From: Deltaproteobacteria bacterium
GTDB lineage: Bacteria; Myxococcota; Myxococcia; Myxococcales; 40CM-4-68-19
Reading direction: 5' to 3'
Assembly (NCBI GenBank): GCA_005879315.1
Contig: VBLC01000039.1
Location: 1-64,000 of the forward strand
DNA: 64,000 nucleotides
Below are positions 40,575 to 56,760 of this stretch, one piece after another. The notes below the pieces were generated by a model that did not search any database, was not told the DNA's origin, and saw only the letters and a list, made by a program, of their open reading frames with translations. The number at the start of each line of letters is the position of its first letter. The first letter of the stretch is position 1. A program made the position numbers and the translations under genes.

Positions 40575-42281
<1,707 letters not shown>

Positions 42282-42330
42282 TCACGCGGCGCGTCCGTCG
42301 AGGGGAACGCGCGCGGGTTTGATCTCGCCA

Positions 42331-42372
42331 GACAACAATGTATGAAGTCACTCCATCAGCGACATTTTTGTA
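42331..42372. promoter_or_regulatory. Paired activator sites, amt proximal pair
   Basis: Two 12-bp sites, GACAACAATGTA (42331-42342) and GACATTTTTGTA (42361-42372), start-to-start 30 bp. Their centres fall near -87 and -117 of the predicted amt start, the usual range for sigma-54 enhancer sites. The second is also inside a longer dyad (CGACAT...ATGTCG, 42360-42377). The protein that binds is inferred to be the adjacent activator. Confidence 0.6.
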
Positions 42373-42469
42373 TGTCGGCGTCGTCAGCCGTTCTTCCACC
42401 CGGGCGCTGCGGCGGCCGCCTCGGGCAACTGCACTCCGCAAGAGTTACCGGCCGCGCAGACCTTCAGAA

Positions 42470-42511
42470 TACAAAAAGGTAGTATTAGCGTGTTGAGGCG
42501 ACAAAATTGTC
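42470..42511. promoter_or_regulatory. Paired activator sites, distal to amt and before the activator gene
   Basis: TACAAAAAGGTA (42470-42481) and GACAAAATTGTC (42500-42511), again 30 bp start to start. They lie at about -226 and -256 relative to amt and 45-86 bp ahead of the activator's GTG start, so they could serve both directions, including autoregulation. The rest of the 320 bp gap shows no gene. Confidence 0.55.
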
Positions 42512-42555
42512 CCTGAGCTTGCGGCGCGACCTCCGCCCTGCTAGGCAACCTTTTC

Positions 42556-44148
42556 GTGCCCAAGCGCGCCAACGTCGCCCGCGACGATCTGCGAACGCTC
42601 TCCGCGCTGGCGGAGATCGGCGCCGCCCTGGCCAGCGCCCCCGACTTGCGCTCGGCCCTCGAGCGCACCCTGGAGAAGCTCGAGGCTTCGCTCGGCATCG
42701 TCCGCGGCGCGATCTTCCTTGTCCACGAGGAGCCCCGCGAGATCCACGTCGACGCCGCCCTCGGCATCCCCAGCGAGGGCCTGCGCGCGCGATACCAGCC
42801 GGGCGAGGGGATCATCGGCCGCGTGGTGCAGAGCGGCCGGCCGGTCGTCGTGCCGGCCAGCGGCAGCGAGCCGCTCCTGATGAACCGCGCCTTCCAGCGC
42901 CGCCGCTCGGGCGTGCCGGAGGCCAGCTTCATCTGCGTGCCGATCACCGTCGATCGCAAGCCGGCCGGGGCGCTGGCGGTCGATCTGCCCTTCAGCGAAG
43001 GCCGCGATTTCCAGGGCGAGACGCATTTCCTCTCGGTGGTGGCGGCGATGTTGGGGCAGTCGCTGCGCGCCCATCGCGCCATCGAGGACGAGCGCAATCG
43101 CCTGCTGGCGGAGAACAAGAACCTGCGGTCGGAATTGGAGGAGCGCTACGACCTCTCCAACATCGTCGGCACCAGCGGACCGATGCGGCAGGTGTACGAG
43201 CAGATCGCGCAGGTGGCGCAGACCAGCACCACCGTCCTGATCCGCGGCGAGTCGGGCACCGGCAAGGAGCTGATCGCCCACGCCATCCATTACAACTCGC
43301 CGCGCGCGGAGAAGCCTTTCGTCAAGGTGAGCTGCGCGGCGCTGCCCGACACGCTGATCGAGTCGGAGCTGTTCGGCTACGAGAAAGGCGCGTTCACCGG
43401 CGCGGAGGCGCGCAAGCGGGGCCGCTTCGAGCTGGCCCACGGCGGCACTCTTTTTCTCGACGAGGTGGGCGAGCTGAACCTGCCCACCCAGGTGAAGCTT
43501 CTCCGCGTCCTGCAGGAGGGCGAGTTCGAGAAGCTGGGCGGCACCGAGACGCTCAAGGCCGACGTGCGGCTCATCGCGGCCACCAACCGCGACCTGGAAG
43601 CGGCCATGGCGGAGCGGCAGTTCCGCGAGGATCTCTATTACCGGCTCAACGTCTTTTCGATTTTCGTGCCGCCGCTGCGCGACCGGAAGCCGGACGTGAT
43701 GCTGCTCGCCGATCACTTCCTCATCAAGTACACGCGGCAGCACAACAAGCGCATCAAGCGCATCGCCACGCCCGCCATCGACATGCTGATGAGCTATCAC
43801 TGGCCCGGGAACGTCCGCGAGCTGGAGAACACCATCGAGCGCGCCGTTCTGACCTGCGACAGCCAGGTCATTCACGGGCACCACTTGCCGCCCGCGCTGC
43901 AGACGGCGGAGGCGTCGGGGACCGCGGTGCAGTCGTCGCTCTCGGACGCGGTCGGGCAGTACGAGAAGGATTTGATTCTCGATGCCCTGAAGAGCGCGCG
44001 CGGCAACCGCGCCAAGGCGGCGCGGCTCCTGGGGACGACGGAGCGGATCGTCGGGTACAAGGTGCGCAAGTACGGCATCGAGGCCAGCCGGTTCCGCGGA
44101 GCGCCCGCCCCAGCGGCGCCGCGGTGGCCGCGGACGGGGACCCGGTAA
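42556..44148 (+). CDS. NifA/NtrC-type sigma-54 activator (GAF-AAA+-Fis HTH)
   Basis: 530 residues from a GTG. Residues ~15-185 are a GAF-type sensor (NifA-like); ~205-440 the AAA+ domain with Walker A GESGTGKE, the sigma-54-contact loop GAFTGA, Walker B GGTLFLDEVGEL and the R-finger region; ~470-515 a Fis-type helix-turn-helix (GNRAKAARLLGTTERIVGYK). There is no response-regulator receiver domain, so it should be controlled by ligand or by P-II binding to GAF, as known for NifA. It sits divergently beside amt-glnK, which carry a sigma-54 promoter. No nif genes are seen, hence no gene symbol. Confidence 0.93.
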   Translation: MPKRANVARDDLRTLSALAEIGAALASAPDLRSALERTLEKLEASLGIVRGAIFLVHEEPREIHVDAALGIPSEGLRARYQPGEGIIGRVVQSGRPVVVPASGSEPLLMNRAFQRRRSGVPEASFICVPITVDRKPAGALAVDLPFSEGRDFQGETHFLSVVAAMLGQSLRAHRAIEDERNRLLAENKNLRSELEERYDLSNIVGTSGPMRQVYEQIAQVAQTSTTVLIRGESGTGKELIAHAIHYNSPRAEKPFVKVSCAALPDTLIESELFGYEKGAFTGAEARKRGRFELAHGGTLFLDEVGELNLPTQVKLLRVLQEGEFEKLGGTETLKADVRLIAATNRDLEAAMAERQFREDLYYRLNVFSIFVPPLRDRKPDVMLLADHFLIKYTRQHNKRIKRIATPAIDMLMSYHWPGNVRELENTIERAVLTCDSQVIHGHHLPPALQTAEASGTAVQSSLSDAVGQYEKDLILDALKSARGNRAKAARLLGTTERIVGYKVRKYGIEASRFRGAPAPAAPRWPRTGTR

Positions 44149-44194
44149 GGCGTATCCCTGTCGAAATCGCAGCGCGGGGCGGCGACTTGGTTGG

Positions 44195-44523
44195 ATGTCC
44201 GCCCTTTTCAAGTTCATCGGCGGCGGCGTCAGGATGTCCGCCTTTTCAAGTTCGCCAGGGAGCGGAGATGCGCCTTCTCCAGTTGGCGGCACGTGAGTGG
44301 GATGTTTTGCATGTGTGTCCGCGTGTTCGCTGATTGCGGAGAGGATGTCCGCCCGTTCAACAGTTGCTGGACTTGATTGGGCGGACATTGCGCCGGCCGC
44401 GCGCGCTTCGGAACCTGGGCATGGCGAATTCCGCAACTTGATTGGGCGGACATCGCGCGAGCCCCGCGCGCCGCGGCAAGGGTCTGAGAGCTTGGCACAC
44501 CCTCAACATGATTGGGCGGACAT
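44195..44523. repeat. Cluster of seven REP-like short repeats upstream of the RAYT gene
   Basis: Copies of ATGTCCGCCC followed by a TCAAGTT-type tail. Direct: 44195-44215, 44234-44253, 44268-44285 (degenerate), 44345-44366. Inverted: 44371-44388, 44435-44453, 44505-44523, reading AACTTGATTGGGCGGACAT or close. Copies 4 and 5 face each other, with perfect 10-bp arms (44345-44354 and 44379-44388) and further partial pairing inside, so a hairpin is expected. The cluster fills most of the 453 bp between the activator gene and the transposase start. Spacing is irregular, so it is not a CRISPR. Confidence 0.8.
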
Positions 44524-44601
44524 CCAAAATGCCCTCCCGCCGCGCGCGAGGGATCGTGGGATGGCGGTCGAATGTCAGACCCCTTCGGTACCGTCGCGCG
44601 C

Positions 44602-45207
44602 ATGGCACAGCTCGACTTGAACCTGCCGCAATGGGGCGGGCGACGACGGGGCGCTGGACGCAAACGGAAAGAACCGCTCCGGCGAGTCCGGCACCGAAAG
44701 CGGCGGCGCTTCCGATGGAAACCGCTGCACGTCACCATCCGCATGCGCCGCGAAGTCTGGAGCTTGCGCACGCGCAGATGCTTTCGGGCGATGAAGTACG
44801 CCTTCGCCAAAGGCTGCGAGCGCTTCGGATACCGGCTGATCCACTTCTCCGTGCAGCGCAACCACATCCACCTGATCGTCGAGGCGCCCGACGAGGTCCA
44901 GCTCGGCCGCGCCATGAAGGGCCTCGGCGTGCGCATCGCCCGCGTCATGAACAGGGCGATGGCTCGCAAGGGCCAGGTCATTGCCCATCGCTACTACGCG
45001 CGGATCCTCAGAACGCCTCCGGAAGTGAACTTCGCGATTCTCTACGTGCTTCACAACCGGGCGCACCACATCGCGCGCGAAGGCTGGCCGCTGCCGCCCC
45101 GGTACGAGGACCCGCTCACTTCCGAAGGCACGCGGGGTCACGACCCGCCGCTGGTCGCTTCGCCGCGGCTCTGGCTCTTGCGCGTCAGCTGGCCCGGACA
45201 GGCGTAA
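44602..45207 (+). CDS. REP-associated tyrosine transposase (RAYT, Y1 family)
   Basis: 201 residues from the ATG at 44602 (in-frame Mets occur 10 and 30 codons earlier, the latter within repeat 7). The start MAQLDLNLPQWGGRRRGAGR is typical of the group. Catalytic features of Y1 HUH enzymes: KPLHVTIRM near the N-terminus, the HxH metal motif in QRNHIHLIVEAPDE, and the nucleophilic Tyr in LYVLHNRAHH. RAYTs are single-copy, domesticated enzymes that act on short REP palindromes; such repeats lie directly upstream. It appears intact. Confidence 0.88.
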   Translation: MAQLDLNLPQWGGRRRGAGRKRKEPLRRVRHRKRRRFRWKPLHVTIRMRREVWSLRTRRCFRAMKYAFAKGCERFGYRLIHFSVQRNHIHLIVEAPDEVQLGRAMKGLGVRIARVMNRAMARKGQVIAHRYYARILRTPPEVNFAILYVLHNRAHHIAREGWPLPPRYEDPLTSEGTRGHDPPLVASPRLWLLRVSWPGQA

Positions 45208-45223
45208 CCGACGACCAGCTCTT

Positions 45224-45910
45224 CTACCGCGCCTTCGCCTCCAACACCTTCGCGGCGATCTCTTCAACTCCGACGCCGCGCGTGACCTGCGCGAACACCG
45301 TCGGCCCCTCGCCCCTCATGCGCCGCGCGTCGCGATCCATCACCCCCAGGTCCGCCCCTACGTGCGGCGCCAGGTCGGTCTTGTTGATCACCAGCAGATC
45401 CGACTGCGTGATCCCCGGCCCGCCCTTGCGCGGCACCTTGTCGCCACCCGCCACGTCGATGACGTAGATGGTGTAGTCGGCCAGCTCGCGGCTGTACTGC
45501 GCGGCGAGGTTGTCGCCGCCGCTCTCGACGAAGAGGAGCTGCGGAGCGGGGCGGACATCTTCCATGAGCTGCTCGAGGGCGAGCAGGTTGTGGCTGATGT
45601 CCTCGCGGATGGCCGCGTGCGGGCAGCCGCCCGTCTCGACTGCGCGGATCCGTTCGCGCGGCAGGGCTTCGTGGCGCACCAGGAACTCGGCGTCCTCGCG
45701 GGTGAAGATGTCGTTGGTCACGACGCCGAGGCTCAGCCGATCGCGCAGCGCGCGGCAGAGCGCGAGCAGCAGCGCCGTCTTGCCGCTGCCCACCGGGCCG
45801 CCCACGCCGACCGTGAAGGCACGCGCGCGAAGATCGCGCCGCCGCCGCTCCTGCCGCTCGTGATAGTGGCCGGGATGGTCCGCGTGCTCGTGATCGCCTT
45901 CGTGTGCCAT
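45224..45910 (-). CDS. ureG: Urease accessory GTPase UreG
   Basis: 228 residues. Walker [15 protein letters not shown], metal-binding Cys-Pro-His in [13 protein letters not shown], the [12 protein letters not shown] segment and NKTD guanine-specificity motif. It hydrolyses GTP to deliver nickel to urease. The N-terminus holds six histidines in the first 17 residues, a possible nickel store. Last gene of the urt-ure operon, 10 bp after ureF. Confidence 0.96.
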
Positions 45911-45920
45911 GGGGATCTCC

Positions 45921-46550
45921 TCAGGATTGAAAGAGCCGCGAATAGAGGCGGTCGTGAGCGCCTTGCAAGAGGTCGAGCAGCGGCGCCGGCTGCGCCAGCG
46001 ATTCGGGGCCGAGCTCGCTGCAAGCGGCGTAGACTTCATCGAGCACCGGCGCGAGCTCGACGAGCAGCGCTTGTGCCTCGTGCGTGCCGGCGATGCCCAG
46101 CCGGACTCCCGCCGAAACGACTCCGCGCGCCGTGCTCCAAAGGAAGAGCCGCTGTGACTCGGGCAGCGACATGCCCAGCGCGCGGAAGACTGCGCCCCAG
46201 AGCGGCGCGAGATGCATCCGCAACCCGTCGGGAAGCGCCGGCGCCTCCTGGGGAAAGACGCGCGCACAGGTGGAGAAAAATGTCCGCCCCTGGGTGCGGC
46301 TGGCGCGGTTCGCAACGTGATTGGCGAGAAAGAGATCCGCGCGCTCGTCGAGCTGCGGCAGTGCTGTCGCATCCTCGAACGCCGCTCGCACGAGCGGAAG
46401 CGCGCCGCAACCTGCCTGCCAGAGCGCGTCGCGGGCGAAGCGCGGCAGGCTGTACACTTCGCCCGCCTGCGCCGCCGCTTCCAGCCCAAAGGAATGCGCG
46501 AATCCGCCGGTGGGAAACCCCGAATCCGCCAGCTGCAGCAGCCTCCACAT
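45921..46550 (-). CDS. ureF: Urease accessory protein UreF
   Basis: 209 residues, typical size. Conserved start [21 protein letters not shown] and helical body; the [14 protein letters not shown] segment near the C-terminus also fits. UreF joins UreD and UreG in the apo-urease activation complex. It begins three bases after the ureC stop. Confidence 0.94.
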
Positions 46551-46553
46551 AGG

Positions 46554-48263
46554 TCAGAAGAGCGAATACCGCTGCGCCAAGGGCAGCCGGGTGGCCGGCT
46601 CACAGCGGAGGAGCGCGCCATCCGCGCGCACCTCGTAAGTCTCCGGGTCGACTTCGAGCCGCGGGAGCGAGTCGTTCAGCTTCATGTCCTTCTTGCCCAA
46701 CCCGCGGCAGCCGCGCACGGCGCAGAGCCGCTTGCGCAGGCCGAGCTCGTCGAGAGCTCCTTCCGCAAGCGCCCGGCGCGAAACGAGCGCGAGACTGATC
46801 GCGCCTGGCGCGCGCGCGCCGAACATCGGCCGCATCCGCAGCGGCTGCGGCGTGGGGATCGAGGCGCCCGCGTCGCCCATCTGCGCCCAGGCGATGAATC
46901 CGCCTTTGATCACCATCTCCGGGCGAATGCCGAAGAAGCCCGGCTTCCAGAGCACGAGGTCGGCGAGCTTGCCGGCCGCAACCGATCCGGTCTCGTGGGC
47001 AAAGCCATGGGCGATCGCGGGATTGATGGTGTATTTCGCGATATATCGGCGGATGCGATAGTTGTCATTGTCGCCCTTTTCCTCCGGCAGCCGCCCCCGC
47101 TGCTCACGCATCTTGTGGGCGGTCTGCCAGGTCCGGGTGATCACCTCGCCGACCCGCCCCATCGCCTGGCTGTCGCTCGACATCATGCTGATGGCCCCGA
47201 GGTCGTGGAGGATGTCCTCGGCGGCGATGGTCTCGGCGCGGATGCGGCTTTCGGCGAAAGCGACGTCCTCGGGGATCTCCTTGTCGAGATGGTGACAGAC
47301 CATCAACATGTCGAGGTGCTCGTCGAGCGTATTGACGGTGAACGGCCGCGTCGGGTTCGTCGAGGAGGGCAGGACGTGCGGCACGCCGCAGACGCGGAGG
47401 ATGTCCGGCGAGTGGCCGCCTCCGGCCCCTTCCGAATGATAGGTATGAATGGTCCTGCCTTTGAATGCCGCAATGGAATCGTCGACGAATCCTGATTCAT
47501 TCAAGGTGTCGGTATGAATGGTGACCTGGACATCTTCGCCCTCGGCCGCCGCCAGGCAGCAGTCGATGGCCGCCGGTGTCGTGCCCCAGTCCTCGTGCAG
47601 CTTGAGGCCGAGGGCGCCAGCGCGGATCTGATCGAGCAATCCTTCCGGCCGTGAAGAGTTTCCCTTGCCGGTGAAGCCGACGTTCAAAGGCAGGTCGTCC
47701 ACCGCCTGCAGCATGCGGGCGATGTTCCAGGCGCCCGGCGTGCAGGTCGTCGCGTTCGTTCCGGTCGCCGGGCCGGTGCCGCCGCCGATCCAGGAAGTGA
47801 TGCCGCTCGCCAGCGCCTCGTCAGCCTGCTGCGGGCTGATGAAGTGGATGTGGCTGTCGATGCCGCCGGCGGTGAGCAACAGTCCTTCGCCGGCGATTGC
47901 TTCGGTGGTGACGCCGACGGTCATTCCCGGCATCACGCCCGACATCACGTCGGGGTTGCCGGCCTTGCCGATGGCTTTGATGCGGCCGTCCTTGATGCCG
48001 ACGTCGGCCTTGTAGATACCGGTGTAATCGACGATCAATGCATTGGTAATGACGCAATCGAGCGCATCTTTGTCGAGCGCGCCCGCTTTCTGTCCCTGCC
48101 CGTCGCGCAGCACCTTGCCGCCGCCGAATTTGCACTCGTCGCCGTAGGAGGTGAGATCGCGCTCCACCTCGGCGATGAGCGCTGTGTCGCCCAGCCGCAC
48201 GCGGTCGCCGGTGCTCGGTCCATAGAGATCGGAATAATGGCGCCGATCGATGCGCCGGCTCAT
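46554..48263 (-). CDS. ureC: Urease alpha subunit
   Basis: 569 residues. Amidohydrolase active site complete: HxH in [13 protein letters not shown], carbamylated lysine in [37 protein letters not shown] and the flap MVCHHLD. It hydrolyses urea to ammonia and carbamate with two nickel ions. Overlaps ureAB by four bases. Confidence 0.98.
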
Positions 48264-49015
48264 GGCTGCTCCTCATGAGCGAATCCGCGCTCCTTCACGT
48301 TGCCGAGCATCCGCGCGCGGCCCGTCGGGTTGATCTCTCCTTCGCCCAGTGCATTCCCGCCGCGCACGACGCGAGCCCCGGCGAAAGCGACCAGCTGCAC
48401 TGTCTTGCTCTCGCCCGGCTCGAAGCGCACCGCGGTGCCCGCGGGGACGTCGAGCCTCATCCCATAAGCGCGGCCGCGGTCGAAGGACAATGCCCGATTC
48501 GTCTCGGCAAATGGATAGTGACTGCCAACCTGGATGGGCCGATCGCCGCGATTCACCACTCGCAGCGCCACGGTCTCGCGGCCGGCATTCAGCTCGATGT
48601 CGCCGGCGGCCGGCAGCACTTCTCCCGGCAGGGGTTCCGCGGCGACCGGGCCGCTCCGGGCCGGCGCGGGCAAGAAGCTGCCGTACAGCGCCAGCGCCGC
48701 ATCTCCCTGCTCCAGCGCGATGGGATGGTGGACCGTGACGAGCTTCGTTCCGTCGGGGAAGGTCCCTTCCACCTGCACTTCGGCGATCAGCTCCGGCACG
48801 CCGGGCATCACCTGCGCGCGGCCGAGCATGCGGCGGCCGAGGTCCATTAGCTCGGCCACGCTGCGGCCGTCGCGGATGAGCTCGAGCAGCTGCGCGGAGA
48901 TGAGCGCGACGGCCTCGGGGTAATTGAGGCGCACTCCGCGCGCGAGCCTCTTCTGCGCGAGAAAGCCCGCGCCGTGCAGCACCAGCTTGTCGATGTCACG
49001 AGGCGTGAGATGCAT
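48260..49015 (-). CDS. ureAB: Fused urease gamma-beta subunit
   Basis: 251 residues: a gamma domain (~1-100, [17 protein letters not shown]...[17 protein letters not shown]) joined to a beta domain (~128-245, [33 protein letters not shown]). Separate genes are commoner; fusion is known in some other bacteria. No frameshift or stop separates the parts. Confidence 0.95.
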
Positions 49016-49808
49016 CGTGCCTCCAGGGGTCGTCTCCGAGCAGCGAGGGAACGTCAGCCAACAAGGCGCGCAGCCGGCGCAGCAGCGCTTGCACCGACTC
49101 GGCGGCCGCGCGCACGACCAGTGCGCCGTCGCGCAGCGGGCTGGCCGATTCGATCAGCGGCGCGCCCTTTGCGACGGGCTGCGCGTCCACCTCGGAGCGC
49201 ACCCGCTCGGCGATTCCGGCGAAGAGAGGCCCCGCCAGAAGCAGCGTGCCGATGGCGTGGAAGCGGCCCATCCGCGCCTCGAGCGAGCCGTGCGCCGCGT
49301 CGAGCAGCCAGACCTCATCGAGGAACGGCCGGACCACGAGCGCGCTCTTGCAGCGGGCGAATCCCCAGCGCTCGCGGCCGGCGGAGAGGATCTCCCAGAG
49401 CGCGAGCGAAGCGCCGGAAGCCAGCTGGACTTCGGTGCGCTGCTGATAGCGCGCGCCCCCGAAACAAGCGGAGGGTTCTGGCAAGAGCACCAGCGCGCCG
49501 CCCTCCTCCACTCTCGCCACCGTCTCGCTGCTGCAGCCCTGCAGCGAGCGAAAGACCCGCGTCGGCCCCTGCGTGGAGACGAAGGCGCGCGCCGACTTGC
49601 CCACCGCGATCTCGAGCCGCACGCGATCGCCGTCGACCAGCCCGCCGCCCAGCGTGGTGGTGTAGGCCCACGCCGCCCGGCCGTGATTGCGGGGCGTGAG
49701 GAAACGGAGCGGGCTCTCGGCGTAGGCGCCGCAGACTGCGGTCGCCGCGCCGGCGCGCTCGAAGGCGAGACGGCCCAAGGCCATGGATGGTCTTGTACAT
49801 CGGATCAC
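48996..49808 (-). CDS. ureD: Urease accessory protein UreD
   Basis: 270 residues from a GTG that overlaps the urtE stop (GTGA), chosen because nearly every junction in this operon has this form; an ATG at 49784 is the alternative. Recognisable UreD segments: [33 protein letters not shown] and [11 protein letters not shown]. It is the scaffold of the nickel insertion complex. Its end overlaps ureAB by 20 bp. Confidence 0.88.
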
Positions 49809-50494
49809 AGCGCCAGGTGCCGCCGCACCTGCGCGGGATCGAGCTCGGCGATGCGCCCGCGCAGGACGATCTCGCCGCGCGAGATCACCGCGCACTGCTC
49901 GGCCAGTTCCAGCGCGAAGTCGAGATACTGCTCGACCAGCACGATGGTGATGCGCCGCTCGAGCAGCGACTTGAGGACGCGGCCGATCTCCTTGATGGTC
50001 GAAGGCTGGATCCCCTCGGTCGGTTCGTCGAGCAGAAGCAGCCGGGGCCGCGAGATGAGCGCGCGGGCGATGGCCAGCTGCTGCTGCTGGCCGCCGGAGA
50101 GATCGCCGCCGCGCCGGTTGCGCATGGTGCGCAAGATGGGGAAGAGCTGCTCCAGCTCCTCGCGCGGCGCGGCCTCGCCGTTGGCCGCCGACTCGCCGAC
50201 GGCCAGGTTCTCGGCCACCGTCAGGCGCGAGAAGATCTCGCGGCCCTGCGGCACATATCCCATCCCCAGGCGCGCGCGCCGGTAGGAAGGCAGGCGGGTC
50301 ACGTCCTCGCCGTCGAGGACCACGCTCCCCGCCCGGAGCGGCAGCTCTCCCATCAAGCAGCGCAAGAGAGTGGTCTTGCCCACGCCGTTGCGCCCGAGCA
50401 GCGCGGTGCAGGAGCCGGCCGGCACGTCGAGGTCGATCTTCCGCAGCGTCTGGCTTCCGCCGTACGCCTGCTCGAGGCCGCGCACGGAAAGCAT
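49805..50494 (-). CDS. urtE: Urea ABC transporter ATP-binding protein UrtE
   Basis: 229 residues. Walker A GRNGVGKTTLL, signature LSGGQQQQLAIARAL, Walker B LLLLDEPTEGIQPS. The LivF-like UrtE type is shown by SRLTVAENL and EGIQPSTIKEIGRV. It starts in a TGATG overlap with urtD and is followed immediately by ureD. Confidence 0.94.
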   Translation of the reverse strand: MLSVRGLEQAYGGSQTLRKIDLDVPAGSCTALLGRNGVGKTTLLRCLMGELPLRAGSVVLDGEDVTRLPSYRRARLGMGYVPQGREIFSRLTVAENLAVGESAANGEAAPREELEQLFPILRTMRNRRGGDLSGGQQQQLAIARALISRPRLLLLDEPTEGIQPSTIKEIGRVLKSLLERRITIVLVEQYLDFALELAEQCAVISRGEIVLRGRIAELDPAQVRRHLAL

Positions 50495-51249
50495 CAGCGC
50501 CCCAGATAGACGTCGATGACGCGCGGGTCGTTGCGGACAGCGTCCATCGTTCCTTCCGCCAGCACGCGCCCCTCGTGGAGCACGGTGACCTTGCCGGCGA
50601 TGCTCTCGACGAAGTGCATGTCGTGCTCCACCACCACCAGCGAATGCTTGCCGGCGAGCGACTGGAAGAGCTCGCCGGTGCGCTCCGTCTCCTCGTCGCT
50701 CATCCCCGCGACCGGCTCGTCGAGCAAGAGGAGCCGCGGGCCCTGTACGAGGAGCATGCCGATCTCCAGCCATTGCTTCTCGCCATGCGCGAGCAGATCG
50801 GCCTGGGTGGCGGCCTTGGTCCGCAGGCCGATGAAGGCGAGCACCTCCTCGATGCGGGCCTCCTGCTCCGGCGAGAGGCGCGCCCGCAGGGTGGAGAAGA
50901 CCCGCTTGTCCGTCTTCATCGCCAGCTCGAGATTTTCGAAGACGGTGTGGTTGCGAAAGACGGTGGGCTTCTGGAACTTGCGGCCGATGCCGGCGCGGGC
51001 AATCTCCGGCTCGGAGAGCTCGGCGAGATCGTGCGCCTCGCCAAAATGCACTTCTCCTGCGTCGGGTCGCGTGCGGCCGGTGATCACGTCCATCAGGGTG
51101 GTCTTGCCCGCGCCGTTGGGACCGATGATGCAGCGGAGCTCTCCCGGTTCGACGATCAGGCTCAAGGCATCGAGCGCCTTGAAGCCGTCGAAGCTGACCG
51201 TCACTCCGCTCAAGTAGAGGATGGGGCCGCGCGGCGTGTCGAGGTTCAT
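50494..51249 (-). CDS. urtD: Urea ABC transporter ATP-binding protein UrtD
   Basis: 251 residues. Walker A GPNGAGKTTLMDVITG, GRKFQKPTVF, and LLLLDEPVAGMSDEETERT. The ABC signature reads LAHGEKQWLEIG, the usual UrtD form. Provides ATP hydrolysis for urea import with UrtE. Confidence 0.95.
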   Translation of the reverse strand: MNLDTPRGPILYLSGVTVSFDGFKALDALSLIVEPGELRCIIGPNGAGKTTLMDVITGRTRPDAGEVHFGEAHDLAELSEPEIARAGIGRKFQKPTVFRNHTVFENLELAMKTDKRVFSTLRARLSPEQEARIEEVLAFIGLRTKAATQADLLAHGEKQWLEIGMLLVQGPRLLLLDEPVAGMSDEETERTGELFQSLAGKHSLVVVEHDMHFVESIAGKVTVLHEGRVLAEGTMDAVRNDPRVIDVYLGR

Positions 51250-52376
51250 GCGGCCCTCGCCCGCAGGAAAAGCCCGAGCACGCCGCGCGGCAACCAGCGA
51301 GTGACGATGACGAAGGAAAGCCCGAGCGCGAAGAGCCACAGCTCGGGAAAGGCGACGGTGAGGAAGCTCTTGGCGCCGGTGACCAGCGCCGCGCCGAGGA
51401 TGGGTCCGAGCAGCGTGCCGCGGCCTCCCACCGCCACCCAGATGGCGATCTCGATCGAGTTCGCTGGCGACATCTCGCTGGGGTTGATGATCCCGACCTG
51501 CGGTACGTAGAGAGCGCCGGCGACGCCGCAGAGGGCCGCCGACAGGGTCCAGACGAAGAGCTTGAACCCCACCGGATCGTAGCCGCAGAAGCGCAGGCGA
51601 TCCTCGGCGTCGCGGATGGCGGTGAGCACGCGGCCGAGCTTTCCCAGGACGAGCGCGCGGCAGGCGACCAGCGCGCCGAGGAGCAGCGTGGCCGAGAGCA
51701 CGAGCAGGGCAACGCGAGTGCGCGGGCTGGCGAGAGGAAATCCGAGAATGCGCTTGAAGTCGGTGAAGCCGTTGTTGCCGCCGAAGCCGGTCTGGTTGCG
51801 GAAGAAGAGCAGCATGAATGCGTAGGTCAGCGCCTGGGTGATGATGGAGAAGTAGACGCCGCGGATGCGCGAGCGGAAGGCGAACCAGCCGAAGACGAAC
51901 GCGAGCAGCGCGGGCGCTAGCACCACCAGGAGCGCCTGCTGGGAGAAGTGCTCCGAGCCCTGCCAGTACCAAGGCAGCTGCTTCCAGTCGAGGAAGACCA
52001 TGAAGTCGGGGAGGATGGGATCGCCGTACGCGCCATCCGTGCCGATGGCGCGCATCAGGTACATGCCCATCGCGTAGCCGCCGAGCGCGAAGAAGAGCCC
52101 GTGGCCGAGCGAGAGGATGCCGGTGTAGCCCCAGACCAGATCCATCGCGAGCGCGACGGTGGCGTAGCAGAGGATCTTGCCGGTCAAGGCGACCGTATAG
52201 TCGGAGATGTGCAGGGCGGCGCTCGAGGGCAGCACAAGATGCAGAGCCGGCACCAGGATCACCAGCGCGGCATATACGCCGAGGATGAGGATCCACACCC
52301 GGCGGGGAAAGAGCGCGCGGCCGGTCTTCGGCCGTCGAGCGAGCAACGGTGAGAGCGCGACGGCCACGGAGCTCAT
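51246..52376 (-). CDS. urtC: Urea ABC transporter permease UrtC
   Basis: 376 residues with an N-terminal soluble stretch and about nine membrane helices. UrtC features: VWGYTGILSLGHGLFFALGG, WFAFRSRIRGVYFSIITQAL, and TAIRDAEDRLRFCGYD. It pairs with UrtB to form the inner-membrane channel. ATGA overlaps on both sides. Confidence 0.95.
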   Translation of the reverse strand: MSSVAVALSPLLARRPKTGRALFPRRVWILILGVYAALVILVPALHLVLPSSAALHISDYTVALTGKILCYATVALAMDLVWGYTGILSLGHGLFFALGGYAMGMYLMRAIGTDGAYGDPILPDFMVFLDWKQLPWYWQGSEHFSQQALLVVLAPALLAFVFGWFAFRSRIRGVYFSIITQALTYAFMLLFFRNQTGFGGNNGFTDFKRILGFPLASPRTRVALLVLSATLLLGALVACRALVLGKLGRVLTAIRDAEDRLRFCGYDPVGFKLFVWTLSAALCGVAGALYVPQVGIINPSEMSPANSIEIAIWVAVGGRGTLLGPILGAALVTGAKSFLTVAFPELWLFALGLSFVIVTRWLPRGVLGLFLRARAA

Positions 52377-53905
52377 CCCTCGTCCACCGCGCGCCCGCGC
52401 AGCGCGAAGAGGCCCTGCGGCCGGCGCTGGATGAAGAGGATGACGAAGACGAGCACGGCGATCTTGGCCATCACCGCGCCGGCGCTGGGCTCGAGGAACT
52501 TGCTGACGATGCCCAGGCCGGCCGCCGCGATGACGGTCCCCGCCAGCTGGCCCACGCCGCCCAGCACCACCACCATGAAGGAGTCGACGATGAATCCCTG
52601 GCCTAGCTCGGGGCCGACGTTGCCGATCTGCGAGAGGGCGCAGCCGCCGAGGCCGGCGATTCCGCTGCCCAGAGCGAAAGCGAGCAGATCGATGCGCGGC
52701 GTCGCCACTCCGAGTCCCGCGGCGCGCTGGCGATCTTGCGTGACGGCGCGGACGAGAAGGCCGAGGCGCGTCCGGGTGAGGAGCGCCCAGACGAGGAGCA
52801 AGACACTCGCCGCAAAGGCGAAGATGGCGATGCGGTTGAAGGGCAGGACCAATCCGGCCAGGAGCGTGACGCCGCCTGACATCCAGGAGGGATTCGAGAC
52901 CTCGACGTTCTGCGCGCCGAAGGCCGTGCGCACCGCCTGGATGGCGAGAAGGCTCGCGCCCCAGGTCGCGAGCAGTGTCTCCAGCGGACGTCCGTAGAGC
53001 TTGCGGACGACGAAGAGCTCGAGCAGCACGCCGGCCAGCGCCGCAGCGACGAACGAGGCGGGCAGCGCGGCGGCGAGATACCAGTCGAAGAACCGCCCGC
53101 CGCGGAAGGCCGACTGCACCAGCCAGGTGGCGTAGGCGCCGACCATCAAGAGCTCGCCGTGCGCCATGTTGATGACGCCCATCAGGCCGAAGGTGATGGC
53201 CAGTCCGAGTGCGGCGAGCAGAAGGATGCTGGCCAGGCTCAGCCCCGAAAAGACCAGGCCCACCATGTCGGCGCGGCGCTGCGAGGCCTCGACGCTCTCG
53301 ATCGCGCTGCGCAGGGCCGCGAGGATCTGCGGGTCTTGCTCGAGCGCGAGCCGCTGCGTGAGCTGCCGCTGGGCGTGCGCCTTGCGTAGCTCCTCGATCG
53401 CGGCGAAGCGCTTCTGCCGATCGGGGCTGGCCAGCGCCAGCATGGCATGCGTGCCGCGCAGCGCTTCCTTCACCCGGGCGTCGGTCTCGCCCTGCAGCGC
53501 CTTCTGCACCGCGGGCAAGAGGTCGGCATCTCCGCTCTCTTGAAGAGCGCGCGCCGCCGCCAGCCGATCGGCCGCGGCCGCGGAGAAGAGACCCAGCGCG
53601 GCGATCGCCCGCGTGAGCGATCGCCGCAGCCGGTTGTTGATTCCGACCTTCTCCACCTCCTCTCTCGGCACCGCCGCCGGCGCGCCGCTGAGCGCGTCGC
53701 GCAGCGTGCCGCGATCGTCGATCAAGACTGCCCCCGCTTCGCTGAGATAGAGATTTCCTTCCTGCAACGCGCGCAAGACCGGCAGCGCCGCTGCATCACC
53801 CGCGGCGACCAGCGCGGAGATGGCCTCTTCGCGCGAGTCGCCGCGGGCCAGCTTGTCCAGAGTCGTGGCGTTCAACGCCGTAGCTATGGCAAGCGCGGCG
53901 ATCAT
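52373..53905 (-). CDS. urtB: Urea ABC transporter permease UrtB
   Basis: 510 residues. A ~200-residue extracytoplasmic helical domain (from ATTLDKLARGDSREEAISAL) typical of UrtB precedes the membrane part, in which GVINMAHGELLMVGAYATWL and TQDRQRAAGLGVATPRID are conserved. It overlaps the porin-like gene upstream by four bases. Confidence 0.95.
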   Translation of the reverse strand: MIAALAIATALNATTLDKLARGDSREEAISALVAAGDAAALPVLRALQEGNLYLSEAGAVLIDDRGTLRDALSGAPAAVPREEVEKVGINNRLRRSLTRAIAALGLFSAAAADRLAAARALQESGDADLLPAVQKALQGETDARVKEALRGTHAMLALASPDRQKRFAAIEELRKAHAQRQLTQRLALEQDPQILAALRSAIESVEASQRRADMVGLVFSGLSLASILLLAALGLAITFGLMGVINMAHGELLMVGAYATWLVQSAFRGGRFFDWYLAAALPASFVAAALAGVLLELFVVRKLYGRPLETLLATWGASLLAIQAVRTAFGAQNVEVSNPSWMSGGVTLLAGLVLPFNRIAIFAFAASVLLLVWALLTRTRLGLLVRAVTQDRQRAAGLGVATPRIDLLAFALGSGIAGLGGCALSQIGNVGPELGQGFIVDSFMVVVLGGVGQLAGTVIAAAGLGIVSKFLEPSAGAVMAKIAVLVFVILFIQRRPQGLFALRGRAVDEG

Positions 53906-54930
53906 TCCTGGATCTGGATGCCGAGCTGCACGTTGGTCTGGCTCGAGCCAGTCGGGGGCGCGCTGTTCTGCACCACCATGGCGACGCGCGCGTTGTGCCC
54001 GTCGAGGATGTAGTTGAGGCCGCCATCGATGGTCTTGATGGCGTCACCCCCCGCTCCCGGCACGGCGTGCTGGTATCGCACCATCGGCTGCACGCGACCC
54101 GGGCCGAGCTTGGAGGCGAAGAGCCAGCTGGCGAGGCCGTAGAAGCTCCAGCCTTGCTTGCCGGCATCGTTGCCCTGATTGAAGTTGTAATAAGCGCCTT
54201 CGAGCGAGAGCACGTCGGCGGCGACCTTGTGCTCGAAGAGCAGGTCGAGGTTCATCCCGAGCAGCTTCTTGTCGCCGGCGGGATCGGCCGTCTTCTTGTA
54301 TTGCAGCGTGCCGCCCAGCGCGAGCACTTCCTTGGAGCCGTAGTACGTGCTCGAGTTGTAGTAGCCCGGCTCCGGGTCGAGGAAGTTGTAGACCAGCCGC
54401 ACCGCGTAGATCGCCTGCCCGATGGGAGTGGTGGGATCGACGGTGAAGACGCCGGCCTGGTACTTGAACTGTCCCTTGTTGACCTGGCCCCACAGCGCCG
54501 CGCCGTCGGCGCGGCCGGCGTAGACCGATGGATATCCATTGACGGTGGTCGGATAGTTCCAGGCGTTCTGATAGTACGGCCCGCTCAAGTTCGCGCGATC
54601 GGAGGGCGGCAAGAAGCGCCCCATCCAGACGTTGAACAAGTCGGTCGGCTCGAACTGCGCCACCGCGTCGAGCACGTGGATGCGGCCGCCGTCGCCGTTG
54701 TTCAGGTCGAGGTTGCCGGAGAACTTCATCCACGGCGCGATCTGCGCGCCGATGTAGGGCCGGACATCGAGCGTCGGCACGCCCAGGCCAGTGGCGGTCG
54801 TGGCGTCGGTATAGCCGCCGCCCACGCGGATTCCCACGCCATAGGAGAGCGACTTCGGTCCCAACGTCAGCTGATCCGCGCTCGCGGCGAAGGCAGCGAG
54901 CGCTGCTGCAGAAGCGGCTGCGATTCTCAT
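53902..54930 (-). CDS. Outer-membrane porin-like protein in the urea operon
   Basis: 342 residues. Signal peptide (RIAAASAAALAAFAASA), then alternating strands rich in Tyr, Trp and Gly ending in NVQLGIQIQE, as in beta-barrel proteins. An N-terminal GIRVGGGYTDATTA and GRFLPPSDRANLSGPYYQN resemble phosphate-selective porin-type barrels. Four-base overlaps with both urtA and urtB put it firmly inside the urea uptake unit, so a role as an outer-membrane channel for urea or short amides is a fair inference. Confidence 0.8.
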   Translation of the reverse strand: MRIAAASAAALAAFAASADQLTLGPKSLSYGVGIRVGGGYTDATTATGLGVPTLDVRPYIGAQIAPWMKFSGNLDLNNGDGGRIHVLDAVAQFEPTDLFNVWMGRFLPPSDRANLSGPYYQNAWNYPTTVNGYPSVYAGRADGAALWGQVNKGQFKYQAGVFTVDPTTPIGQAIYAVRLVYNFLDPEPGYYNSSTYYGSKEVLALGGTLQYKKTADPAGDKKLLGMNLDLLFEHKVAADVLSLEGAYYNFNQGNDAGKQGWSFYGLASWLFASKLGPGRVQPMVRYQHAVPGAGGDAIKTIDGGLNYILDGHNARVAMVVQNSAPPTGSSQTNVQLGIQIQE

Positions 54931-56168
54931 CTCAGCTCCGCATGCTTTTCATTGCCGGGGATGAAGGGGCTCCAGGGCTGCGCGCGGATCGGTTTGTCCG
55001 TCTTCCACACCACGTCGAACTGCCCGTCGCCCTGCACCTCGCCGATCATCACCGGCTTCCAGAGATGGTGGTTGGTCTCGTCCATCTTGAGGACGAACCC
55101 CGAGGGCGCGGGGAAGGTCTGCCCGCTCATCGCCTTGCGCACCTCATCGACCTTGACGCTGCCGGCCTTCTTCACCGCCTGCGCCCACATGTGCATGCCG
55201 ACGTAGGTGGCTTCCATCGGGTCGTTGGTGACGCGCGAGTCGCCGCCGGGCAGCTTGTTCTTCTTCACGTACGCCTTCCATTTCTTGATGAAGGCGGCGT
55301 TCTCCTTGTTCTTCACCGACATGAAGTAGTTCCAGGCGGCGAGGTGGCCGATCAGCGGCTTGGTGTCGATGCCGCGCAGCTCCTCCTCGCCGACGGAGAA
55401 AGCCACCACCGGGATGTCCGTCGCCTTGAGCCCCTGGTTGCCCAGCTCCTTGTAGAAGGGGACGTTGCTGTCGCCGTTGATGGTGGAGATCACGGCAGTC
55501 CGGCCACCGGCGCCGAACGCTTTGACCTGGGCGACGATGGTCTGGTAGTCGCTGTGCCCGAAAGGCGTGTACGTCTCCTGGATGTCGGTCTCCGGAACGC
55601 CTTTGGAGCGCAAGAAGGCGCGGAGGATCTTGTTGGTGGTGCGCGGATAGACGTAGTCGGTGCCGAGCAGGAAGAAGCGCGTCGCTCCGCCGCCCTCCTT
55701 GCTCATCAAGTATTCCACGGCGGGGATGGCCTGCTGGTTGGGCGCGGCGCCGGTGTAGAAGATGTTTTGCGAGAGCTCCTCGCCCTCGTACTGCACCGGA
55801 TAGAAGAGGAGCCCGTTCAACTCCTCGAAGACGGGCAGGACCGACTTGCGCGAGACCGAGGTCCAGCAGCCGAACACCACCGCCACCTTGTCCTGGGTGA
55901 GCAGCTGCCGCGCCTTCTCGGCGAAGAGCGGCCAGTTCGAGGCGGGATCGACGACGATGGGCTCGATCTTTTTTCCCAGCACGCCGCCCTTGGCGTTGAT
56001 CTCGTCGATGGTCATCAGCGCCACGTCCTTGAGCGACGTCTCGCTGATCGCCATCGTCCCCGAGAGCGAGTGGAGGATGCCGACCTTGATCGTCTCCTCT
56101 GCGCGCGACTGCGTCGCGCAGAGAGCGGATGCCATCACCAGCGTTGCCAGTCTGAAGCTCCTCATCAT
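54927..56168 (-). CDS. urtA: Urea ABC transporter substrate-binding protein
   Basis: 413 residues from the ATG at 56168, preceded by AAAGGAGA. Signal peptide MMRSFRLATLVMASALC; UrtA hallmarks: VGILHSLSGTMAISETSLKD, GCWTSVSRKSVLPVFE, NGLLFYPVQYEGEE and FVLKMDETNHHLWKP. First gene of an eleven-gene operon running to ureG. Transcribed from a sigma-54 promoter candidate. Confidence 0.96.
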   Translation of the reverse strand: MMRSFRLATLVMASALCATQSRAEETIKVGILHSLSGTMAISETSLKDVALMTIDEINAKGGVLGKKIEPIVVDPASNWPLFAEKARQLLTQDKVAVVFGCWTSVSRKSVLPVFEELNGLLFYPVQYEGEELSQNIFYTGAAPNQQAIPAVEYLMSKEGGGATRFFLLGTDYVYPRTTNKILRAFLRSKGVPETDIQETYTPFGHSDYQTIVAQVKAFGAGGRTAVISTINGDSNVPFYKELGNQGLKATDIPVVAFSVGEEELRGIDTKPLIGHLAAWNYFMSVKNKENAAFIKKWKAYVKKNKLPGGDSRVTNDPMEATYVGMHMWAQAVKKAGSVKVDEVRKAMSGQTFPAPSGFVLKMDETNHHLWKPVMIGEVQGDGQFDVVWKTDKPIRAQPWSPFIPGNEKHAELR

Positions 56169-56203
56169 GTCTCCTTTGGTGTGAACTGAACCGTTCCCGC
56201 CTG

Positions 56204-56219
56204 TGCAAGCGCAGGACCA
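56204..56219 (-). promoter_or_regulatory. Sigma-54 (-24/-12) promoter of the urt-ure operon
   Basis: Minus strand reads TGGTCCTGCGCTTGCA: GG-N10-GC with the same TGGTCC -24 and TTGCA -12 boxes as at amt, but a different five-base spacer. The start is predicted near 56193, 25 bases before urtA. Confidence 0.75.
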
Positions 56220-56276
56220 CCCCGCGGCACACGCCGCGCCACTCGCGCGCGGAAAAATTTGCCGGACGGCTGGCAC

Positions 56277-56318
56277 GACGAATTCGTACGATCCGCCTCG
56301 CGACCCGACGAAATCGTC
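56277..56318. promoter_or_regulatory. Paired activator sites, urtA proximal pair
   Basis: GACGAATTCGTA (56277-56288) and GACGAAATCGTC (56307-56318), 30 bp start to start, centred near -90 and -120 from the predicted urtA start. This matches the amt proximal pair in motif, spacing and position. Confidence 0.6.
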
Positions 56319-56336
56319 AGCGTTGCAAAACCAACC

Positions 56337-56360
56337 TTGGCGCGTTCGTTGGCGCGTTCG
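56337..56360. repeat. Perfect 12-bp tandem duplication
   Basis: TTGGCGCGTTCG occurs twice back to back between the two activator-site pairs upstream of urtA. No function is evident; it could be a small slippage duplication or a protein site. Confidence 0.6.
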
Positions 56361-56406
56361 ATCGAGCGGCGCCTTGGCCCCGCTTCGCCCCTCCGGCGTC
56401 ACATCC

Positions 56407-56448
56407 GACGGATTTGTCGTCTGCTCAGATCGAAACGACGAACTTGTT
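56407..56448. promoter_or_regulatory. Paired activator sites, urtA distal pair
   Basis: GACGGATTTGTC (56407-56418) and GACGAACTTGTT (56437-56448), 30 bp start to start, centred near -220 and -250 from urtA. They correspond to the amt distal pair at about -226 and -256. They also lie ~100-140 bp ahead of the ilv promoter candidate. Confidence 0.55.
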
Positions 56449-56457
56449 GCCGCCGCA

Positions 56458-56488
56458 GAGCGCCCGGAGAGTGATCGGCCGGGCGCTC
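56458..56488. other. GC-rich hairpin in the urtA-ilv intergenic region
   Basis: Perfect 10-bp arms GAGCGCCCGG and CCGGGCGCTC around an 11-base loop. There is no good T-tract on either side (only a CCTTTC downstream on plus), so it is not a convincing intrinsic terminator. It lies between the enhancer-like sites and the ilv promoter region and may insulate them. Confidence 0.4.
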
Positions 56489-56544
56489 CGTCGGGCCTTT
56501 CGCCGAGGAAAGGCGCGGAATGCCGGCGTCTTGCTCGAATAAAT

Positions 56545-56574
56545 TTGACAAGAGTTCGCGATCGACGTTACGGA
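56545..56574 (+). promoter_or_regulatory. Candidate sigma-70-type promoter of the ilv-leu operon
   Basis: A perfect TTGACA at 56545-56550 is followed after 17-18 bases by TTACGG/TACGGA, a weak -10. Transcription would start close to 56580, only a few bases before the leader-peptide ATG. The -35 is convincing, the -10 is not. Confidence 0.4.
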
Positions 56575-56583
56575 TCGCAGCCC

Positions 56584-56700
56584 ATGACTTCGCAGCCAAA
56601 GGCCAGCTCGTTCACCACCGCGCCTCGCGCTGCGCTCTCGCTTCTCGTCCTCGTCGGCCTCCTTCCCCTCATTACCGTGGGGTGCGGGCCGCCTGTCTGA
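56584..56700 (+). CDS. Leu/Val-rich leader peptide of the ilv-leu attenuator
   Basis: 38 residues. The control region LSLLVLVGLLPLITV contains seven leucines, three valines and an isoleucine in 15 residues (a fourth valine ends the peptide), the products of the operon below. No other function is apparent. Its stop lies 25 bases before the terminator stem, the spacing expected for ribosome-mediated attenuation. Confidence 0.8.
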   Translation: MTSQPKASSFTTAPRAALSLLVLVGLLPLITVGCGPPV

Positions 56701-56736
56701 CCGAGAAAGTTTCCGGAAGGAACAGGCCCCCGCACC
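56681..56736 (+). promoter_or_regulatory. Antiterminator pairing of the ilv-leu leader
   Basis: GGTGCGGG at 56681-56688, inside the end of the leader peptide, is complementary over eight bases to CCCGCACC at 56729-56736, which is the 5' arm of the terminator. If the ribosome stalls at the Leu/Val codons before 56680, this pairing would prevent the terminator from forming. Confidence 0.7.
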
Positions 56737-56760
56737 GAGAAGGTGCGGGGGCTTTTTTTT
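56726..56760 (+). terminator. Intrinsic terminator (attenuator) before ilvB
   Basis: A perfect 11-bp GC-rich stem, GCCCCCGCACC / GGTGCGGGGGC, with a GAGAA loop, followed directly by eight T residues. It lies between the leader peptide and ilvB, 16 bases before the ilvB ATG. Confidence 0.92.

Follow-up and report, generated by a model that had tools for sequence, protein, structure and literature searches.

We analysed a stretch of 64,000 nt (the window) in which the intergenic regions upstream of urtA, for urea uptake, and amt, for ammonium uptake, each contain four short dyad sites arranged as two pairs. Judging from the sequence, the eight sites are very probably enhancer operators of the protein encoded at 42556, which would join amt-glnK and urt-ure in one sigma-54 regulon with autoregulation. 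Ammonium uptake and urea use thus look co-regulated in this soil myxobacterium via common activator sites, and the same activator and paired sites are found beside nitrogen-assimilation genes in many Acidobacteriota, in what is apparently an undescribed nitrogen-control system. How nitrogen assimilation is controlled has been little described for many myxobacteria and for Acidobacteriota, which rank among the most common bacteria of soil. With the regulator named, its operator defined and its target promoters listed, this can be put to a direct test in cultured species that carry the system, e.g. Archangium violaceum and Pyrinomonas methylaliphatogenes.

Two control regions with four sites each

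The first region separates urtA (- strand, start at 56168) from the ilv leader (+ strand, 56584) and contains four 14-bp dyads, at 56276, 56306, 56406 and 56436. The second separates amt (- strand, start at 42235) from the activator gene (+ strand, start at 42556), with dyads at 42330, 42360, 42469 and 42499. The features are listed below; ranks are among all 14-mers of the window, scored with a matrix built without window sequence.

40575..40913, - strand: glnK, P-II protein, abutting amt (P-II family models NF008111/NF007946, E 4e-46)
40910..42235, - strand: amt, ammonium transporter (PF00909, 453.7 bits)
42261..42276, - strand: predicted sigma-54 element of amt, TGGTCCCGGCCTTGCA (by consensus score)
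42330..42343, no strand: amt near pair, inner site, AGACAACAATGTAT (rank 3)
42360..42373, no strand: amt near pair, outer site, CGACATTTTTGTAT (rank 1)
42469..42482, no strand: site of the amt far pair, or activator-proximal pair, ATACAAAAAGGTAG (rank 8; strict TAC-N6-GTA)
42499..42512, no strand: site of the same pair, CGACAAAATTGTCC (rank 2; 44 bp from the activator start, where 30-bp pairs are kept upstream of orthologues)
42556..44148, + strand: GAF-AAA+-HTH enhancer-binding activator, likely binder of the eight sites (Pfam GAF, Sigma54_activat and HTH_8; GAFTGA motif; co-occurrence with the pairs)
45224..56168, - strand: putative urt-ure operon of abutting ORFs on one strand (urtA, porin-like ORF, urtB-C-D-E, ureD, ureA-B fusion, ureC, ureF, ureG)
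54942..56168, - strand: urtA, urea ABC transporter substrate-binding protein (TIGR03407, 601 bits, cut-off 492.75)
56204..56219, - strand: predicted sigma-54 -24/-12 element of urtA, TGGTCCTGCGCTTGCA (match to the GG-N10-GC consensus; same place in G005, G003, G131 and G132)
56276..56289, no strand: urt near pair, inner site, CGACGAATTCGTAC (rank 7)
56306..56319, no strand: urt near pair, outer site, CGACGAAATCGTCA (rank 4; 30 bp from the inner site)
56406..56419, no strand: urt far pair, inner site, CGACGGATTTGTCG (rank 6)
56436..56449, no strand: urt far pair, outer site, CGACGAACTTGTTG (rank 5; 30 bp from the inner far site)

The form AC-N6-GT fits all eight sites, the spacing is exactly 30 bp within each of the four pairs, and at both genes the sigma-54 element is positioned between the near pair and the gene. 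Relative to the predicted transcript start, the site centres are at -89/-119/-219/-249 for urtA and at -86/-116/-225/-255 for amt. The sequence-only reading had placed the urt sites at 56277, 56307, 56407 and 56437 (the second base of each 14-mer), in two pairs with members exactly 30 bp apart, at about -90/-120 and -220/-250 against about -87/-117 and -226/-256 at amt, and all these values agree with the computed ones. Its description of the two regions as superimposable holds for the near pair, which is 3 bp off, but less so for the far pair, which is 6 bp off in the opposite direction.

We also checked the identities of the gene products (UrtA, UrtB, ABC permease and ATPases, urease subunits and accessory proteins, Amt, P-II and acetolactate synthase). 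Given their layout, the urt-ure genes would form a single transcript.

Chance, duplication and geometry

The position weight matrix started from sites of Archangium and G001 alone, followed by refinement with pairs of Acidobacteriota; no sequence of the window was included, which removed a possible circularity. With this matrix, ranks 1 to 8 of the 64-kb window all went to the eight sites. Among 300 simulated windows of the same length the best pair with a spacing of 29-31 bp scored at most 19.6, versus 25.4-35.4 for the four pairs of the window, and the whole-genome pair model, run on the window's genome, matched these four pairs only. A loose degenerate pair pattern, allowing up to 3 mismatches, gave about 2000 matches in the genome and is uninformative; it would be the one argument for considering the similarity of the urt and amt regions as chance, or as arising from codon-like periodicity at high GC content. 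We give this explanation practically no weight: the four pairs stand out with the weighted matrix as well as with the pair model, relatives keep them, and the whole-genome pair model together with the simulated windows already refutes it. As for the base-by-base comparison that the sequence-only reading had proposed, the global alignment of the two intergenic regions scored 4.0, versus 2.9 ± 1.5 for shuffles, i.e. no better than shuffled sequence, which rules out a recent duplication, and in a promoter-anchored comparison the sigma-54 block alone stood out. Beyond the dyad sites and the sigma-54 elements, nothing is common to the two regions.

The sigma-54 elements of urtA and amt belong to the top-scoring 16-mers of the window on a simple consensus, but they are not unique, since equally good 16-mers occur elsewhere. 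This home-made consensus would not by itself have picked out the two promoters, and the support for them comes from position and conservation rather than from the score.

Four sites precede urtA in five genomes (G000, G005, G003, G131 and G132) and amt in five genomes (G000, G005, G008, G010 and G001). The far pair is not universal, because urtA of G008 has a single pair. The four-site design was also found at the promoter of a NirB-type nitrite reductase in G131 and G132 and, in G132, at that of a gene with a uroporphyrinogen-III synthase domain; these further sigma-54 promoters are those of loci L177 (G132:C391) and L178 (G131:C45). Over 14 promoters, the start of the inner site is 69 ± 4 bp from the sigma-54 element for the near pair and 196 ± 12 bp for the far pair, with a pair spacing of 29-31 bp; hence the geometry is tight within a pair and between near pair and promoter, and loose for the far pair. 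The selection on geometry that had been suggested for the window is thus strongly backed for the 30-bp spacing and the near-pair distance, and more weakly for the far pair. The rigid near pair and the looser far pair also provide a natural data set for the study of how enhancers are laid out.

Counting against the proposed regulon, no pairs were found at the second amt genes of several carriers, nor at either of the two glutamine synthetase genes in the genome that contains the window. This genome and near relatives, 13 in all, lack glutamine synthetase III. Weak matches of the genome scan in G008 C155, G001 C95 and G006 C420 had no clear sigma-54 element and were left out of the counts. Many of the loci are contigs of metagenome-assembled genomes (MAGs) and are possibly mis-binned.

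The activator at 42556 and the role of the far pair

The protein encoded at 42556 has an AAA+ sigma-54 interaction domain, the GAFTGA motif and an HTH; an rpoN gene is found in the window's genome, and the targets have predicted -24/-12 elements downstream of the dyad sites. Relatives of the activator (58-86% identity) were collected from 80 genome contigs, mostly of Acidobacteriota together with Archangium and Myxococcaceae MAGs. Around 74 orthologue loci the spacing of 30 is enriched, with 44 pairs versus a mean of 1.3 per spacing, and the two controls, reversed DNA and loci that have comparable activators but no orthologue, gave no pairs. The pair model, run over 16 whole genomes, found pairs in 9 of 9 genomes with the activator orthologue and in 0 of 7 without it, and at urtA genes of genomes lacking the orthologue the dyad sites were not found. 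In 51 of the 74 loci, from two phyla, the pairs adjoin the activator gene. In Acidobacteriota, 30-bp pairs flank the orthologues beside glutamine synthetase, glnK-amt and other genes; the gene following the activator in the orthologue loci codes for glutamine synthetase III or I, a molybdopterin oxidoreductase or an MFS transporter, or belongs to glnK-amt, and across loci the neighbours include glutamine synthetase I, II-type and III and glnK-amt. In Archangium, a divergent glutamine synthetase gene lies beside the activator, and each divergent gene has its own pair. The activator at 42556 is therefore the likely binder of all eight dyads. The shared regulon of ammonium uptake with urea uptake and hydrolysis, put forward in the sequence-only reading, gains support both from the four-site design, kept at urtA and at amt in five genomes each, and from this perfect co-occurrence of paired sites and activator.

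According to the mechanism that we propose, one activator dimer would bind each AC-N6-GT dyad, and the two dimers of a 30-bp pair would sit side by side, at a distance of about three helical turns. At amt and urtA the near pair, ~70-100 bp upstream of the -24 element, would deliver the AAA+ ring by looping to the sigma-54 RNA polymerase, and the far pair may provide extra binding capacity or cooperativity. The amt far pair, from which no sigma-54 element leads towards the activator gene, would also control that gene, most likely by repressing a sigma-70 promoter (negative autoregulation). In this way a single regulon would cover amt-glnK, for ammonium uptake and P-II, as well as urt-ure, for the uptake and hydrolysis of urea, and nitrogen limitation would presumably turn it on.

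The double role of the amt far pair is suggested by its position, 44-87 bp before the activator gene, and by what is seen in relatives. Pairs immediately 3' of the activator are followed in 19 of 29 cases by a strong sigma-54 element 80-150 bp on, towards the next gene, whereas for pairs immediately 5' of it a sigma-54 element was found in neither direction (0 of 27); in G001 and G003 the 5' pair is present although amt is not the divergent neighbour. Since relatives keep the 5' pair without a sigma-54 element, we infer that it is an autoregulatory operator acting on a sigma-70 promoter, and the amt far pair of the window may serve both amt and the activator. The autoregulatory pair is not universal either, because G132 has no pair before its activator.

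Two other readings of the sites have to be weighed against this one. The genome encodes dozens of enhancer-binding proteins and binding by the 42556 protein is predicted from sequence, so the dyads could belong to another regulator (a different enhancer-binding protein or an unrelated repressor) merely travelling with the activator. We consider this highly improbable: the pairs stand beside the activator gene itself in two phyla, they follow it into a second Myxococcota family, and genomes lacking it have no pairs despite many other enhancer-binding proteins. It is less improbable, yet still unlikely, that the far pairs are unrelated to amt and urtA, the one at amt being only the activator's own operator and the one at urt either a relic or part of the divergent ilv operon. 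The amt far pair does lie at the usual position of pairs before the orthologues, the distance to the promoter varies more for the far than for the near pair, and the separate pairs of the divergent genes in Archangium fit this explanation too. However, the amt far pair persists in G001, with the activator several kilobases distant, and in G010, with the activator on another contig; a far pair is also found at nirB, and two pairs precede glnK-amt in L091 and L094. That the urt far pair belongs to the ilv operon is ruled out by G005 and G131, which keep this pair before urtA with a co-directional upstream gene.

Anaeromyxobacter-like relatives without the activator (L038-L043) have a sigma-54-like element of the TGGCACG-N4-TCGCT type before urtA and none of the dyads, so another activator must serve there. 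In G008, locus L046 (G008:C171) has at ~1600-2430 a second activator copy near the first, 67% identical to it over the aligned part.

Known regulators, origin and neighbouring genes

The best full-length family match of the activator is the NifA model, with 525.4 bits, narrowly under the curated cut-off of 528.85, and the GAF-AAA+-HTH architecture is common to both. The tests run rejected an identity with NifA, given this score, the absence of NifA-type TGT-N10-ACA sites from the urt and amt regions and the absence of any nifH-family protein (nitrogenase iron protein) over the nifH cut-off from nine carrier genomes. NtrC binds paired sites spaced about three helical turns, and the system resembles it both in such paired upstream sites and in its targets (amt-glnK, glnA, urea and nitrite genes). 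The 42556 activator differs from NtrC in having a GAF domain in place of the N-terminal receiver domain. The missing receiver domain, together with the absence of NtrC-type (GCAC-type) dyads, searched with a loose pattern in the urt and amt regions, led us to reject an identity with NtrC; no protein over the NtrC cut-off was found in five carriers.

The operator of AnfA is a TAC-N6-GTA dyad with two sites per promoter (PMC7294313), and that of VnfA1 is GT(T/A)C-N6-GTAC, mostly with two motifs per promoter (PMC9542535). These activators share with ours the GAF-AAA+-HTH architecture and usually have two dyads per sigma-54 promoter, and the operator of the 42556 system appears closest to their sites: strict TAC-N6-GTA fits one of the eight window sites and the relaxed AC-N6-GT all of them, strict forms being common in Archangium and in some Acidobacteriota. 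They differ in having several cysteines in the GAF region, where the 42556 activator has one cysteine within its first 180 residues, and in having nitrogenase targets instead of ammonium, urea, nitrite and glutamine synthetase genes. The nifH search of the nine carriers likewise gave no sign of an alternative nitrogenase as target of the 42556 system. By analogy, the 42556 system would work like NtrC as to targets and like AnfA as to operator and architecture. DVU1949 of Desulfovibrio is, by its published description, likewise a one-component sigma-54 activator, predicted to control genes of nitrogen metabolism and transport (PMC4641369). We did not find this paired-operator regulon described in the open-access library that was searched, an absence that is weak evidence.

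A maximum-likelihood tree, for which two distant outgroups provide the root, places the Myxococcota activators in a single clade (100/99) nested among the Acidobacteriota sequences, and this nesting suggests a single transfer into Myxococcota. On balance, we favour the view that this is an undescribed nitrogen-control system: a GAF-type, AnfA/NifA-like sigma-54 activator would stand in for NtrC in many Acidobacteriota, and a single transfer would have brought it into Myxococcota. Its 30-bp paired AC-N6-GT operators would be enhancers at the genes for ammonium, urea and nitrite use and for glutamine synthetase and, where no sigma-54 promoter follows, the activator's own feedback operator. The contigs L084, L088 and L128, titled Bifidobacterium breve or Acidimicrobiia, carry Acidobacteriota-like activators (L084 and L128 group there in the tree) and are probably mislabelled or mis-binned.

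As for the neighbouring genes, a search of the urt-ilv region against Rfam gave nothing over the gathering score. The ilv leader (56584-56760, + strand) has a 38-residue ORF ending LLVLVGLLPLITVGCGPPV, followed by a GC-rich hairpin and a T run before ilvB (56743), a layout as in attenuation by branched-chain amino acids. The gamma and beta subunits of urease are encoded by one fused ORF (48260-49015, - strand). An outer-membrane-porin-like ORF (53902-54930, - strand), with a weak ExtI match under the cut-off, lies between urtA and urtB in the urt operon, and the DNA after urtA in G005 and G008 is similar to this region. Between the activator and the urease genes (44190-45207) there is an IS200-like Y1 transposase ORF (PF01797). 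Short GGGCGGACAT motifs, repeated in both orientations, come before it, and with these repeats it looks like a REP-associated transposase.
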